From: a virus
IMG/VR virus record: IMGVR_UViG_3300027741_000277
Location: 1-23,213 of that record
DNA length: 23,213 bases
Direction: 5' to 3' (one strand)
In this document: piece by piece, positions 1,566 to 12,978 of the stretch
Layout: each line of letters opens with the position of its first letter
How positions within the stretch are numbered: the first letter of the stretch is position 1
Notes under the pieces: generated by a model
Seen by the model: only the letters and a program-made list of their open reading frames with translations
Database searches by the model: none
What the model was told of the DNA's origin: nothing
Position numbers and translations under genes: made by a program

Positions 1566-2426
1566 TTATGTTGCGTTGGGGTTATTGTTTACCAAAACCC
1601 ATGTCCCAGTTTGCGCGTTGTTTACCAAAGTCCAAGTCACTGTTTGACTGTCGTTTACGGTAGTCCACGAGGCTGTTTGCACGTTGTCTATGGACGACCA
1701 AGTTACACTTTGCGCGTTATTTATTGATGTCCATGCTGCCGTTTGCGCGTCATCAATAAGGTTCCACAAAAACGCCGCATCAAAAACGGCAGACCCCGTA
1801 GCTGATTCTACAACAGCTATGTTTAGAACGGCAATTGTGGTGAGTTGGTCTATACCTGACGCAGCCTCCAAAATCGAAGTGACTGCCTGTAACTGCGTGG
1901 TCAGGGTATCTAGACCAGAAGCATTTTCTAGAACGGCGGCAATTAAAGCCAGATTAGAAGTCGTGGAATCTGAGCTCGAGGTGGCCTCAGAGATCGACAG
2001 GGTTACGGTCAATGTTTTATCTACGGCGTCCAACCCGGATGCAGCCTCGGCAATGGCGACACTTAACGCGGCACTGCTCAGTACTGCATCAAGCCCGGAA
2101 GAAGCCTCAGTGATGGCTAAGCTCAGTGTGGCAGTTGTGAATATGGAGTCCAACCCGGAAGCAATTTCAGAAAGCGACAAATTTAGTGTCGCGGTGGCAG
2201 TTAGCGCATCAAGGCCGGAGGCGGCTTCAGTGATTCCCCCGAAAGCTTGTAGCTGCGTGTCTGTTACATCAAGCCCAGAGGCGGCTTCAGCTATCGTACT
2301 GGCAATCTGAAGGTTTAAAGCTACTGAGTCTGCGCTGGAGGCTGCCTCTGCTACCGTTGGGCCATAGATGCTCCCCGCCACAATGGCGGACATACTGATA
2401 GCTGATAGCGGTAGGAAGCCAAGCAC
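1566..2426 (-). CDS. Tandem-repeat virion protein (probable tail or fibre component)
   Basis: This 286-residue protein begins at a GTG (2424-2426), with TAAGGG as ribosome binding site six bases upstream, immediately after the stop of the preceding gene. After a hydrophobic N-terminus (residues 1-25) come ten copies of a 20-residue repeat (residues 27-216) built around E-A-A-S-G-L-D, followed by five copies of an 11-residue repeat (residues 227-281) of the pattern AQTxxWTxVNN. The period is exact in both blocks, with no indels. Ala/Ser/Thr-rich repeats of this kind occur in phage fibre and tail proteins, and the neighbours on both sides are tail proteins. It may form a regular beta-structured or helical rod. 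I recognise no catalytic motif. A role as an elongated fibre or spacer is inference. Confidence 0.65.
   Translation of the reverse strand: MLGFLPLSAISMSAIVAGSIYGPTVAEAASSADSVALNLQIASTIAEAASGLDVTDTQLQAFGGITEAASGLDALTATATLNLSLSEIASGLDSIFTTATLSLAITEASSGLDAVLSSAALSVAIAEAASGLDAVDKTLTVTLSISEATSSSDSTTSNLALIAAVLENASGLDTLTTQLQAVTSILEAASGIDQLTTIAVLNIAVVESATGSAVFDAAFLWNLIDDAQTAAWTSINNAQSVTWSSIDNVQTASWTTVNDSQTVTWTLVNNAQTGTWVLVNNNPNAT
1584..1748 (-). repeat. Five-copy 33-bp coding repeat (11-residue unit)
   Basis: Copies read AQTAAWTSINN, AQSVTWSSIDN, VQTASWTTVND, SQTVTWTLVNN and AQTGTWVLVNN in a row. On the plus strand the repeat shows as recurring GTTTGCGC / GTTTACC words. The conserved Trp and Asn positions suggest a beta-repeat stacking on aromatic residues. 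Confidence 0.85.
1779..2348 (-). repeat. Ten-copy 60-bp coding repeat (20-residue unit)
   Basis: Each copy encodes E-A-A-S-(G/S)-(L/A)-D followed by 13 variable, mostly Ala/Thr/Leu/Ser residues. The glutamates fall at residues 27, 47, 67 and so on to 207, an exact 20-residue spacing. The copies have diverged in DNA sequence while keeping the peptide core, so selection on the protein seems to hold the period. Confidence 0.85.
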
Positions 2427-2434
2427 AGTAACCC

Positions 2435-2719
2435 TTATGCGTCTTCAGCGCCTTCAAACTCCGGCTTCTGCTTAATGATTGCGTACAGTGCAGCACGGTC
2501 AGCACCAGCAATGTATTCAGAGCCAGAGATTTGCACCTTACCTGCGCTCAGAGGCTGTTTGCCAGCTTCACGGGCTTCTTTGGATGCGTAGCCGTAGAAC
2601 GTAACTTCCGTGCCCTTGCCTTTGAAGTCTTCTTGTACGGCTCCGATGTTCCAGTATGCGGCAAAAACTGGGGCTTCTGGTGTGCCGTAGTCAGTGTTAA
2701 TGGGCTTGAGTAATGCCAT
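2435..2719 (-). CDS. Small conserved-looking phage protein, function unknown (target of the GIY-YIG insertion)
   Basis: The start is chosen at the ATG 2717-2719 (MALLKPINTDYGTPEAP, 94 aa), because AAAGGAAACGAAA gives a ribosome binding site just upstream and the same start peptide occurs again at 3505. An in-frame ATG ten codons further upstream lies inside the endonuclease gene and is less likely. The protein is soluble and mixed alpha/beta in character (AAYWNIGAVQED, TEVTFYGYASKEA, YAIIKQKPEF) with no membrane segment or known motif. Its first 23 bases overlap the end of the GIY-YIG gene in another frame. Lying among tail genes, it is probably a tail-associated or assembly protein, which is inference only. 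Confidence 0.65.
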   Translation of the reverse strand: MALLKPINTDYGTPEAPVFAAYWNIGAVQEDFKGKGTEVTFYGYASKEAREAGKQPLSAGKVQISGSEYIAGADRAALYAIIKQKPEFEGAEDA

Positions 2720-3464
2720 TTTCGTTTCCTTTGTGTTTACAGTTTTCAAAATGATAGCGCAGCATGTTGCCGCCAGCGCCTATTGTTCCGCATTGCGGAC
2801 AAGTTTTTTTAGGGTGTGTCCAAGTTTTACCAAGCAATGCAAGACTTTGTGCTGGTCTTTTTTCTCCAGCACGTTTTTTGTTTGCTTCAATAACCGCTGG
2901 AAATGCTTTTCCTTTACGATGACTTGGCTTTCCTTTTAATGCTTCGCTTAATTTTGCACGTTGTTCATCAGACATTGGAGGCATTTTCTTGCCTTTGTTC
3001 CAACTTGGTTTTCCTTTTAAAGCAGCACTTAATTTTGCTCTTGCTTCAGCAGATTTTGGCGGCAACTTTCTTTTCCAATTAGGGCTAAGTTCACCACGTT
3101 TACCGAATGATGGATTTTTATCACCTGATCGTGCTTTGCTTTTTTTCAATAATACTTCTGGTGTATCTTTGCAACCAAGTCGAGTCCACTTCATATCTTG
3201 ATTGTGAAGGTTGTAACTCATTTCGGATTGCTTGGCTCTCATGCCAACAAGAGTAAAAGATTCAATCTCTAATGCTCGTTTTGGTTCACCAACAAACAGA
3301 ATCTTTCTTTTCCAACCATCAGGATTAGCTTCAATCAAAGGCTTAACCGTTTTACTAGAGCAAATATACCCATCATCAGGATGACAGCCTTTGCGTGTAC
3401 GTGAGCCGATATACCACTTTTCAGTAGCAATCTCTTTCCACATATAAACGTAAGCTTGTTCCAT
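2697..3464 (-). CDS. GIY-YIG homing endonuclease with NUMOD3 repeats and C-terminal zinc finger
   Basis: This 255-residue protein starts YVYMWKEIATEKWYIGSRT (from residue 5), which is the GIY-YIG nuclease motif in the variant form YVY...YIG. R22 lies where the catalytic Arg is expected, and E67 or E69 in ALEIES is a plausible metal-binding Glu. Residues around 118-198 carry NUMOD3-type DNA-binding repeats, including two near-copies of RAKLS(A/E)ALKGKPS and several NPSFGK/KGK phrases. The C-terminus has a C2HC finger, CPQCG...RYHFENCKH. This layout matches free-standing phage homing endonucleases such as T4 Seg proteins. The start codon overlaps the stop of a 13-codon ORF (TAATG), and the last codons overlap the start of the next gene. 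The region looks richer in A/T than its neighbours, which suggests separate ancestry. Confidence 0.88.
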   Translation of the reverse strand: MEQAYVYMWKEIATEKWYIGSRTRKGCHPDDGYICSSKTVKPLIEANPDGWKRKILFVGEPKRALEIESFTLVGMRAKQSEMSYNLHNQDMKWTRLGCKDTPEVLLKKSKARSGDKNPSFGKRGELSPNWKRKLPPKSAEARAKLSAALKGKPSWNKGKKMPPMSDEQRAKLSEALKGKPSHRKGKAFPAVIEANKKRAGEKRPAQSLALLGKTWTHPKKTCPQCGTIGAGGNMLRYHFENCKHKGNENGITQAH

Positions 3465-3505
3465 TAAATTCCGTAGTCGGTGTCAATTGATTTTATAAGT
3501 GCCAT
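3464..3505 (-). pseudogene. 13-codon remnant or duplicate of the start of the 2435-2719 gene
   Basis: A ribosome binding site (AAGGAAAATC) and ATG at 3503-3505 open a 13-codon frame, MALIKSIDTDYGI, ending in TAA whose last base is the first base of the endonuclease ATG. Nine of its first twelve residues equal those of the gene downstream of the endonuclease (MALLKPINTDYG). Codons differ at several third positions, so the two copies are diverged rather than recent. It could act only as a leader that couples translation into the endonuclease. The peptide identity and the insertion point after the glycine codon are seen directly; the history is inferred. Confidence 0.7.
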
Positions 3506-3513
3506 GATTTTCC

Positions 3514-4368
3514 TTAAAACATTAAAAACATATTGCCGGTTGATGTTGCAATAGGAGTGTAAGTGATGATAATAATACCGGCAGCACCAAGACCGCCAGT
3601 TGAAATTGTGGAAGATGCACCACCACCACCGCCACCACCATAAAGGCCACCAGCACCACCGGATGTAGTAGTTGCCCCGTCACCTGCACCACCACCGCCA
3701 CCACCTGAGTAAACCGACGTTCCTGCTCCACCAGCAGTTCCAGAAGTTGCGGCAATTCCACCGTTTCCGCCAGCGCCAGCGCCTGTTCCAGCAGTTCCAC
3801 CAGTTACTCCAGAACCAGCACCGCCACCATTTCCACCACCGCCGCCATTGCCAATTGTTGCTATTGTATTAGTAGAACCCGCTCCGCCAACTCCATTAGG
3901 GCCACCAGCACCGCCACCGCCGCCACCTGCTGCTGTTGTCGCCGTGCGTCCAGAACCTCCATTGCCTCCCAATTGTTGCAAGGAAATGTAATTAACACCT
4001 GCTAGTGTGCCTCCTCCATTAGAAGAAACAGTTCCTCCGGTAATTCCAGAAGCATTACCCCCCGTTGGCCCAAAAAACAAAGTCCCATAATAAGGGTCTC
4101 CGTTTCCATCAAGACCAATAAAACCATTCCATAACAGACAACCAAGGCTGTATCCATAATCTAAAATATATCCCGCTTCGACTGATGCTTTTAATGGAAC
4201 ATTTGTGCAGCGAATATAGCCTCCACCCGCACCACCGCCACCAGACCTTGATGCCGTTCCTGCCGCACCATTACCTCCAATGCCATATATTTCAATAGTG
4301 TTAGCGGCATCATTCCAATTTGCTGGAAGCGTCCAAGTTCCTGAGCCTGTAAGAATTACTTGAGCCAT
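3514..4368 (-). CDS. Glycine-rich tail protein, adhesin candidate
   Basis: The 284-residue protein starts at ATG 4366-4368, overlapping the stop of the fibre gene (TAATG), with a perfect AGGAGG site six bases before it. Residues 1-40 (QVILTGSGTWTLPANWNDAA, then NTIEIYGIGGNG) form a beta-type head that I know from glycine-rich phage tail proteins. From about residue 120 to 265 the protein is dominated by runs of Gly with Ala, Ser, Thr and Asn, such as AGGGGGGAGG, closing with a short hydrophobic strand (GIIIITYTP). Such Gly-rich blocks form polyglycine-II helix bundles in the receptor-binding adhesin gp38 of phage S16. Its place directly after a long fibre gene fits a tip adhesin. That function is inferred from composition and context. 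Confidence 0.75.
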   Translation of the reverse strand: MAQVILTGSGTWTLPANWNDAANTIEIYGIGGNGAAGTASRSGGGGAGGGYIRCTNVPLKASVEAGYILDYGYSLGCLLWNGFIGLDGNGDPYYGTLFFGPTGGNASGITGGTVSSNGGGTLAGVNYISLQQLGGNGGSGRTATTAAGGGGGGAGGPNGVGGAGSTNTIATIGNGGGGGNGGGAGSGVTGGTAGTGAGAGGNGGIAATSGTAGGAGTSVYSGGGGGGAGDGATTTSGGAGGLYGGGGGGGASSTISTGGLGAAGIIIITYTPIATSTGNMFLMF

Positions 4369-8959: not shown

Positions 8960-9198
8960 TATCTGAACCTCGCTGTCTTTTTTGCAACCGTTTTTGGTTG
9001 CGCTACAAACTGTTTACCCGCTGCCTTGCCTGCACGTTTGGCACGGGTTGTGGCGGCATACTCTGCTGAGCTAAGGCTTTTAATGGCAGCTTCAGGGAGA
9101 TAGCGCTCCCCCGTCTTTGACGACGGCTTGCCAGACTTAGTACGCCACTTCTGGTCGCCCCAATCTTTAAGGGATTGCTGTGGTGCTTTAAGTGCCAT
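8959..9198 (-). CDS. 79-residue basic phage protein, function unknown
   Basis: The chosen start is the ATG at 9196-9198 (MALKAPQQSLKDWGDQKW), placed eight bases after a GGGAG ribosome binding site. Upstream in-frame starts at 9222, 9219 and 9204 lie inside the endonuclease gene and have poorer spacing. The protein contains WRTKSGKPSSKTGERYLPEA and a basic end, AKRAGKAAGKQFVAQPKTVA. This Trp-Arg-Thr-Lys-Ser-Gly-Lys pattern recurs, as I remember, in small phage proteins of unknown function. It overlaps the end of the endonuclease gene by 11 bases and the start of the next gene by one. It belongs to the basic-protein cluster. Confidence 0.7.
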   Translation of the reverse strand: MALKAPQQSLKDWGDQKWRTKSGKPSSKTGERYLPEAAIKSLSSAEYAATTRAKRAGKAAGKQFVAQPKTVAKKTARFR

Positions 9199-9646
9199 CG
9201 CCATAACTCCCAAAAGCATCAAGGTATTCTAGGGCATTCCTTAACACAGTAGGGCTATCTTTAAACATCCCCAACGCACGATTGCACTGTTTGCAAAGTA
9301 CGCCCCGAAATTCTCCGGTTTCGTGGTTGTGGTCAATAGCGCTTTCTATCAACGCTACTTCTACTTTGCAAATGGCACAGCACCCTTCTTGGCGCTCGTA
9401 CCGTTCTACAAGTTGTTCTGGGGTAATTCCCCGGCGGGAACAACGCTTAGCCAAAGTCCACGGGTCTCTTTCACGATACTCAGCCACTCGGTGCTGGTTA
9501 AGTTCTGCCCAGTCCTTATGTCTTTTGTAAAGACAAGTATTGCAATGACTTTTGTACAGATGCGCCATTTGCCCACCACGACTACGAAACGCGGATAACT
9601 GCTTTGTCTCACCACAATCTGTACAAGTCTTTGTAGCCTCAGTCAC
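9188..9646 (-). CDS. Recombination endonuclease VII-like HNH nuclease
   Basis: The protein (152 aa from GTG 9644-9646; a GTG at 9658 preceded by AAGG would give 156 aa) has an N-terminal CTDCG...CNTCLYKRH pair, then CCAICKVEV and IDHNHETGEFRGVLCKQCNR. The DHNH...GVLCxxCN pattern is that of the endonuclease VII family (T4 gp49, about 157 aa): a His-Asn-His metal site supported by a zinc site of two CxxC pairs. T4 gp49 resolves branched DNA before packaging, while many relatives are free-standing homing nucleases. Here it sits between two tiny basic genes with overlaps on both sides, which suggests insertion into the operon. The sequence does not say which role applies. Confidence 0.85.
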   Translation of the reverse strand: MTEATKTCTDCGETKQLSAFRSRGGQMAHLYKSHCNTCLYKRHKDWAELNQHRVAEYRERDPWTLAKRCSRRGITPEQLVERYERQEGCCAICKVEVALIESAIDHNHETGEFRGVLCKQCNRALGMFKDSPTVLRNALEYLDAFGSYGDGT

Positions 9647-9914
9647 GATAGCCCCCACCTGCGGCCTTATATTTTTTTGCTACTAATTGGCTTTTTCTCG
9701 CGCTCCATTTTCCAGAACCAGTACCCTGTGTTGCCGCAGCTTTAACTTGGCTCACAATACGTTTGCGCAGGCTAGGTTTGGTGTAGTTTCCAGCGGCATT
9801 TACATGCCCGCCTTCAGCGTACTGGGTGAAGTCAGTGTCGTCGCGGCGAGCGGTCTTTTTACCGCTAGGCATTTTGGATGGGGAGATGTCTCCCATGCCG
9901 CGACTAACCCTCAT
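9639..9914 (-). CDS. Small basic phage protein, DUF5872-like
   Basis: This 91-residue basic protein contains KKTARRDDTDFTQYAEGGHV and NAAGNYTKPSLRKRI, and ends with GSGKWSARKSQLVAKKYKAA followed by GGGYRD. The last block is a domain I recall as DUF5872, found in phages and some large viruses; this is from memory and not checked. The start at 9912-9914 is preceded by AAGGG at good spacing and overlaps the stop of the upstream gene (ATGA). The protein is a member of the basic cluster. Its function is not known; the Trp-Ser-Ala-Arg-Lys core suggests binding to nucleic acid or to an acidic partner, but that is a guess. Confidence 0.75.
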   Translation of the reverse strand: MRVSRGMGDISPSKMPSGKKTARRDDTDFTQYAEGGHVNAAGNYTKPSLRKRIVSQVKAAATQGTGSGKWSARKSQLVAKKYKAAGGGYRD

Positions 9915-12511: not shown

Positions 12512-12601
12512 GATATGTGTTCCTTACATACAAGCTAAGTGCGTCAATCGGTATGTCGTCTGCTGGGGCAGTTTGGCGCACTGGAAGTCCCAGATGCACA
12601 C

Positions 12602-12629
12602 AATATACACTAAATTTTGATAGAGTCAA
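12602..12629 (-). promoter_or_regulatory. Sigma70-type promoter for the 12511-12020 gene
   Basis: On the minus strand TTGACT (12624-12629) is followed, after 16 bases, by TATATT (12602-12607). Each box matches the consensus at five of six positions. Transcription would start near 12595, about 80 bases before the ATG of the 12511-12020 gene. It is the best sigma70-like promoter that I see inside the late block. Confidence 0.65.
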
Positions 12630-12633
12630 GGGC

Positions 12634-12978
12634 ATGCCCTACAAAGACCCCGCTGTTAGAAAAGCCAAGCACAAAGAGTATTCGGCTGAGCACTACAAGG
12701 CTAATAAAGCGAAAGTGCGGGAGTCAGCAAAAACAACTCGGCGTGAAGGTAGGGCGTTATGGTCGGAGTTTAAAGCAGGGTTAAACTGTTCCGTTTGCGG
12801 TTTTGCACACCCCGCTGCTATTGACTTTCATCACCCACCGGGCACAAAAAAATACGGGGTAAATAATTTAATTAAAGATGGCCGGTATGCCCTAGCGTAT
12901 AAAGAGGCAGCCAAGTGCATCATCCTCTGTGCTAACTGCCATCGCATCCATCACTACAATGAAAAAGGGGACCGCTAA
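12634..12978 (+). CDS. HNH endonuclease, free-standing, opposite strand to the late operon
   Basis: The start is taken at MPYKDPAVRKAKHKEYSAEH (114 aa), because this N-terminus is typical of small phage HNH proteins; an in-frame ATG at 12553 would add 27 unlikely residues. The basic N-terminal third probably contacts DNA. The catalytic core is CSVCG, then AIDFHHPPG and CIILCANCHRIHHY, that is two CxxC zinc-binding pairs around the His-His...Asn...His metal site. It is the only plus-strand gene inside the late block, so late transcripts cannot express it. Ribosome binding is weak (AAGGG only two bases before ATG). It is most likely a homing-type nuclease. Its 3' end holds the terminator of the acidic gene on the other strand. 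Confidence 0.85.
   Translation: MPYKDPAVRKAKHKEYSAEHYKANKAKVRESAKTTRREGRALWSEFKAGLNCSVCGFAHPAAIDFHHPPGTKKYGVNNLIKDGRYALAYKEAAKCIILCANCHRIHHYNEKGDR

Follow-up and report, generated by a model that had tools for sequence, protein, structure and literature searches.

How does an endonuclease gene come to lie directly behind the start of a small phage gene, in the structural region, when a complete copy of that gene follows immediately downstream? The question is raised by IMG/VR virus record IMGVR_UViG_3300027741_000277, whose whole stretch of 23,213 nucleotides was analysed and is referred to here as the window. On the minus strand the order is the end of a fibre-like gene, an AAGGA, a 13-codon reading frame (the stub), TAATG, the endonuclease gene, and a 94-codon gene. 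For comparison, 118 distinct IMG/VR loci of the 94-aa gene were compiled (L numbers below); the relatives are fragments of uncultured phages. The locus contains the following features.

End at 3514, minus strand: glycine-rich fibre-like gene, from the sequence.
3511-3515, minus strand: Shine-Dalgarno-like AAGGA, the resident gene's own and now preceding the stub; similar in the endonuclease-free ('empty') alleles L071, L061, and L038.
3464-3505, minus strand: stub, MALIKSIDTDYGI (13 codons) plus TAA, with its ATG at 3505; displaced 5′ end of the resident gene.
2697-3464, minus strand: free-standing GIY-YIG endonuclease, 255 aa; phrog_314 homing endonuclease, E 1.2e-13.
2727-2731, minus strand: Shine-Dalgarno-like AAGGA for the 94-codon gene, within the coding end of the endonuclease, from the sequence.
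2435-2719, minus strand: target gene, 94 aa, full length; PHROG match to phrog_5084 (unknown function).
2660-2719, minus strand: first 60 nt of the target gene, a foreign (donor) 5′ end encoding MALLKPINTDYGTPEAPVFA; identical in L001, with divergence beginning immediately after it.

An earlier note on this DNA described a short reading frame with its own ribosome binding site, ending in a TAATG that opens the endonuclease. The coordinates agree, on the minus strand, with the second A of TAATG forming base 1 of the endonuclease ATG (3464); the short frame is real, but it has 13 codons rather than the 12 given. The 23-nt overlap claimed between the endonuclease end (2697) and the start of the next gene (2719) is present, as is the duplicated start: the stub and the downstream start agree at 9 of 12 residues and at 27 of 39 nt, with many of the differences at third positions. 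The 12-residue motif is found at 12/12 and 9/12 in the window, whereas the best match in 100 mononucleotide shuffles of the window was 7/12, seen once. The downstream gene is a single full-length ORF of 94 codons. An intron was rejected: no Rfam match was obtained at E <= 1 in 2300-3800, and the complete downstream gene needs no splicing. By the same Rfam search and intact gene, the endonuclease lies outside any group I intron or intein. Among 209 loci scanned, two starts occur only in the window and in contig IMGVR_UViG_3300027749_000500 (L001/L083/L107), and since these are separate contigs with the same junction, an artefact of assembly is unlikely.

The endonuclease is composed of a nuclease domain, a modular DNA-binding region, and a finger-like motif.

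3186-3464, minus strand: N-terminal GIY-YIG-type nuclease domain, residues 1-93; alignment of 8 homologues, VIA-align Z 5.6 to 1mk0.
2985-3053, minus strand: NUMOD3 DNA-binding motif, the best of 2-3 stretches, residues 138-160; Pfam PF07460, E 2.2e-14.
2739-2801, minus strand: C-terminal finger-like CPxC...HFxxC motif, residues 222-242; cysteines and histidine invariant in eight homologues.

The assignment of the nuclease domain rests on invariant residues and structural matches. In the alignment of eight homologues Y5/Y7, Y18-I19-G20, R22, E68, and N85 are invariant, and we take these to be the I-TevI active-site residues. The predicted fold of residues 2-94 is closest to the I-TevI catalytic domain (73 residues aligned), and the top five VIA-align matches – I-TevI, a 5hmC-specific restriction enzyme, and UvrC domains – have Z scores of 4.1-5.6, at modest model confidence. 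Beyond the nuclease domain the AlphaFold model is of low confidence (mean pLDDT 59), Foldseek alone gave weak matches where VIA-align was clearer, and the sequence profile yielded only a chance match against the PDB. Three homologues match Pfam SegE_GIY-YIG weakly (best E 0.014), and the INPHARED matches, among those listed, are distant Seg-like endonucleases with about 27-28% identity. The endonucleases of L085, L150, and L204 are short (about 183 aa), without about 65-70 residues of the window enzyme's NUMOD3 region, so that the DNA-binding linker varies while gene location is constant. L084, L150, and L204 also have ATATAATATAGG in common directly after the upstream stop and before the endonuclease ATG, possibly a promoter or ribosome binding site of this subtype's own. 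Two other nuclease-like ORFs are present in the window: an Endonuclease VII family ORF at 9188-9658 (minus strand; Pfam E 8e-21) lies among structural genes and is probably another homing-type nuclease, and an HNH-looking ORF (CxxC...HH...CxxCH) at 12517-12978 is on the plus strand, opposite to its neighbours, with no Pfam match.

Across the 118 loci the target gene has the consensus start MALIKS[IV]DTD[YF]GIPAxYWNIGAVQEDF, and its first 16 residues are about three times as variable as the rest (mean entropy 0.69 vs 0.22 bits). No relative of the gene was found in INPHARED phage genome records, and structure comparison gave no convincing fold match for the protein. One 46 kb contig, IMGVR_UViG_3300042516_001195, has two copies (L016 and L039), which are separated by about 27 kb and preceded by different genes.

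No endonuclease adjoins the gene in 108 of the 118 relatives, which show what the site looks like when unoccupied. The uninterrupted single copy expected in such relatives is what is seen, and none of the 108 has a second start or a free-standing 13-codon ORF; L071, L061, L038, and L078 have single intact copies behind similar fibre-gene ends. The best empty allele is L071, whose fibre-gene end is as in the window, and which matches the fibre end and the stub, and then the sequence from the YWN codons to the end of the gene.

2657-3467, minus strand: 811 bp standing in for 10 bp of L071 (codons 13-17); BLASTN pieces L071 3964-4038 and 4049-4272.

The stub matches the intact start of L071 at 37 of 39 nt and the endonuclease-linked starts at only 20-27 (27 for the second start of the window itself), so that the stub is the start of the resident gene and the downstream start is the import. 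The joint had been predicted at the TAC-GGN codons, but lies after codon 13, between GGAATT and TAATG; the recipient contributes GGAATT or GGAAT and the donor TAATGG or TTAATGG, with 1-2 bp in common. The endonuclease start (window 3452-3464) and the YWN codons of the target have seven nucleotides, TGGAACA, in common; these were considered as a recombination guide and rejected, as the joint is off TGGAACA and shuffling gives a 2.5% chance of such a match. The earlier note also offered a second reading, in which the gene was once a tandem pair and the endonuclease took the place of most of one copy. Two tandem starts with so many third-position differences could be explained in this way, but side-by-side starts occur in no endonuclease-free relative among the 209 loci scanned, the genes that the stub matches are single-copy and stand in the same fibre context, and in L071 the remainder of the gene runs on across the gap; we regard a tandem origin as extremely improbable.

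The extent of the imported sequence is indicated by comparison with L001.

2660-3505, minus strand: block common to L001, comprising stub, endonuclease, and donor 5′ end; 846 bp with 5 differences in the window/L001 comparison.

The block is thus 99.4% identical, whereas the remainder of the gene has 21 differences in 225 nt (91%; Fisher p 6e-11). Only the ~35 bases immediately preceding the stub are also related; farther upstream, where the fibre sequences differ, and downstream of the gene the window and L001 are unrelated; elsewhere, in the part of the contigs compared, there are stretches at 96% and 92%, below the identity of the cassette. Heads of the TPEAPVF/SETHPVF type are found solely beside the endonuclease in the 118 distinct loci. 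The relatives were retrieved with the window's 94-aa protein as query, in which search endonuclease-free TPEAPVF alleles would have ranked first, and none was present among them. The sharp fall in identity at the edge of the block, together with the foreign head, supports a mobile unit made up of the endonuclease and ~60 nt of the gene start. With the L071 flanks, this block supports the first reading of the earlier note, in which the endonuclease landed in the gene and the 5′ end was rebuilt with a cassette-carried start from a related phage. The 3′ parts of the window and L001 genes are mutual nearest neighbours (19/222), and a single ancestral event, followed by an exchange of flanks that had other causes, may underlie both, so the joint form counts as one event seen twice.

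The GIY-YIG gene is polymorphic for presence and absence, occurring at 8 of the 118 loci, always at the start of the target gene and with differing flanks. For several of the endonuclease-linked genes, the closest match to the 3′ part is a gene with no endonuclease beside it: L002 differs from L141 at 14 of 222 positions and from the window at 35, and L204 differs from L157 at 5 (L141 and L157 being endonuclease-free). Monophyly of the four genes with 21-residue heads, judged from their 3′ parts, is rejected (p-AU 0.0055), and so is monophyly of all eight; the 222-nt trees have little resolution, with 32 of 114 branches starred. At six loci – L002, L003/L082, L084, L085, L150, and L204 – there is no stub, and the endonuclease directly follows the stop of a different fibre gene. 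That stop in L085 is itself within a TAATG, with the flank GCTTAATGGAACAAGC, so that the TAA of the stub is most simply, and probably, the stop of the donor's upstream fibre gene. As in the window, the endonuclease ends of L002, L084, L150, and L204 contain a purine-rich site.

These loci bear also on whether selection maintains the stub as a leader peptide or regulatory uORF that drives endonuclease translation. A good ribosome binding site and the TAATG overlap have been kept, and stop-start coupling has been proposed for T4 mobE (PMC2988022); however, the six relatives without a stub have their endonuclease after a fibre-gene stop, and the codons of the stub match the resident gene, with no sign of separate selection. 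We therefore consider a selected leader very unlikely, while the stub may have an incidental leader effect. It is plausible that the stub acts as a translation-coupled leader of the endonuclease, but it would not be unusual in this, as L085 has the TAATG at its fibre-gene stop.

The codons at which the joint is located tend to differ between occupied and empty loci. The stretch from G12 to YWN reads G-[ILV]-P-[AS]-x at 89 of the 108 endonuclease-free loci and at none of the 10 endonuclease-linked loci, which include eight with GIY-YIG and two with HNH genes (L067 and L156). When corrected for kinship, 5-8 independent tree pairs agree with this association and 0 disagree (median p 0.016). Altered alleles, including VDC and CTA forms, are also present at 19 of the 108 endonuclease-free loci, so that an altered site is not exclusive to endonuclease linkage. 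The unrelated HNH endonuclease genes are situated between the upstream gene end and the target (L067:3322-4014; L156 just upstream of 1762), and in L067 the end of the HNH gene overlaps the target start by about 14 nt.

An alternative is that the endonuclease is a passive passenger, moved by ordinary modular recombination at a short junction between fibre and target genes, and that its own target is elsewhere. Free-standing enzymes of T4 do cut far from their own genes (PMC2988022), and tail-fibre regions often recombine, with upstream fibre genes varying freely among the present loci. But the joint is within a conserved gene, the right edge of the block falls exactly at the altered site, and the site alleles differ in 10 of 10 endonuclease-linked loci, two of them with an unrelated HNH enzyme. 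We therefore judge passive transfer unlikely, although the most credible of the rival explanations. There may be a recurrent class of phage homing elements, each an endonuclease with a resistance-giving 5′ end of the next gene, in which unrelated GIY-YIG and HNH enzymes compete for one gene start and their turnover drives the unusual diversity in codons 1-16 of a gene that is otherwise strongly conserved; we propose this tentatively, as a possibility that falls a little short of even.

The reading that we favour, and consider highly probable, is one of free-standing homing in which the endonuclease moves together with the 5′ end of the gene that it probably targets. Mixed infection would bring it to the common allele of that gene, which it would cut around codons 13-17. 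Homology in the conserved YWNIGAVQEDF stretch would guide repair of the right side from the donor phage, as the sequences support, with the result that the recipient retains its own 3′ part and gains the donor head. In the lineage of the window the left flank of the donor, a different tail-fibre end, had no homology to that of the recipient, so the left end would presumably have been joined to the broken resident gene at a junction almost devoid of homology, with codons 1-13 surviving as the stub before the donor TAATG; this fits the sequence. Donor-type fibre-gene ends resemble those of endonuclease-free phages (e.g. VRKLAVIA, TTYKVLVST), and there both sides could recombine without leaving a stub, whereas in the GNMFLMF context of the window the left side would have had no partner. 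The new head has an altered site, an association that is observed, and this should protect the chimaeric gene from being cut again. With the resident ribosome binding site still in front of it, the stub probably passes ribosomes on to the endonuclease by stop-start coupling, and the binding site of the restored gene lies within the endonuclease end. Double-strand-break repair that is homologous on the right and non-homologous on the left would account jointly for the hybrid gene and its altered site as well as for the stub, which is a scar bracketing the likely cleavage site.

Among the closest parallels are the WHO elements of Torulaspora and Lachancea, which target FBA1 (PMC7282813). In both systems the endonuclease and a piece of the target gene move together to give an intact recipient/donor chimaera, genomes bearing the endonuclease have a divergent target allele, the two gene ends give discordant trees, and a displaced resident fragment remains – here the 13-codon stub of the window and L001, which is absent from the six other endonuclease loci. 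The WHO elements differ in carrying the 3′ end of FBA1 and lying downstream of it, where the phage endonuclease carries a 5′ end and lies upstream; in encoding LAGLIDADG enzymes with zinc fingers in yeast nuclei rather than GIY-YIG/NUMOD3; and in having experimentally demonstrated resistance, which for the phage we infer. Since nuclease and host differ, the phage element works like WHO but is not a member of it. In the mobile ORFs of fungal mitochondria (Allomyces atp6; Glomus atp6, atp9, cox2, and nad3; PMC3630166) an endonuclease ORF likewise brings a foreign terminal segment of the target and displaces the native one, and the Glomus atp9 enzyme is also GIY-YIG, although it is the C-terminal end that is replaced, and not the N-terminal end as in the phage.

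Intronless homing by the T4 Seg and Mob enzymes (PMC2988022) also involves a free-standing GIY-YIG gene beside a phage gene, co-conversion of flanks, an overlapping stop-start (nrdA/mobE), and expression signals for the next gene inside the endonuclease; the donor allele is assumed to be resistant (PMC12724721). The T4 enzymes, however, cleave at a distance of hundreds of bases or more from their own genes (PMC2988022), whereas the putative site here is at the insertion point and a stub of the target gene is left. In Aeh1, mobE is a free-standing endonuclease inserted into a phage coding gene, nrdA, which is reported to stay split as genes-in-pieces (PMC1851037), whereas here a duplicate 5′ end appears to restore the gene. 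In the literature covered, which is partial, we found no phage precedent for a homing endonuclease carrying a 5′ end. From its sequence organization we classify the locus as putative intronless homing of a Seg-like endonuclease, with the layout of WHO and the fungal mitochondrial mobile ORFs reversed, at the 5′ instead of the 3′ end.

Free-standing homing endonucleases are common in phages, but the unit that moved, and how the host gene is preserved, are usually hard to discern; this one locus offers empty alleles, donor-type alleles, and a scarred recipient together. The scar predicts the cleavage site to within about 10-30 bp, and the linked 5′ ends predict which alleles should be resistant. 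The finding would carry over to phages a logic known from the WHO elements of yeasts and the mobile ORFs of fungal mitochondria, with the other end of the gene involved.
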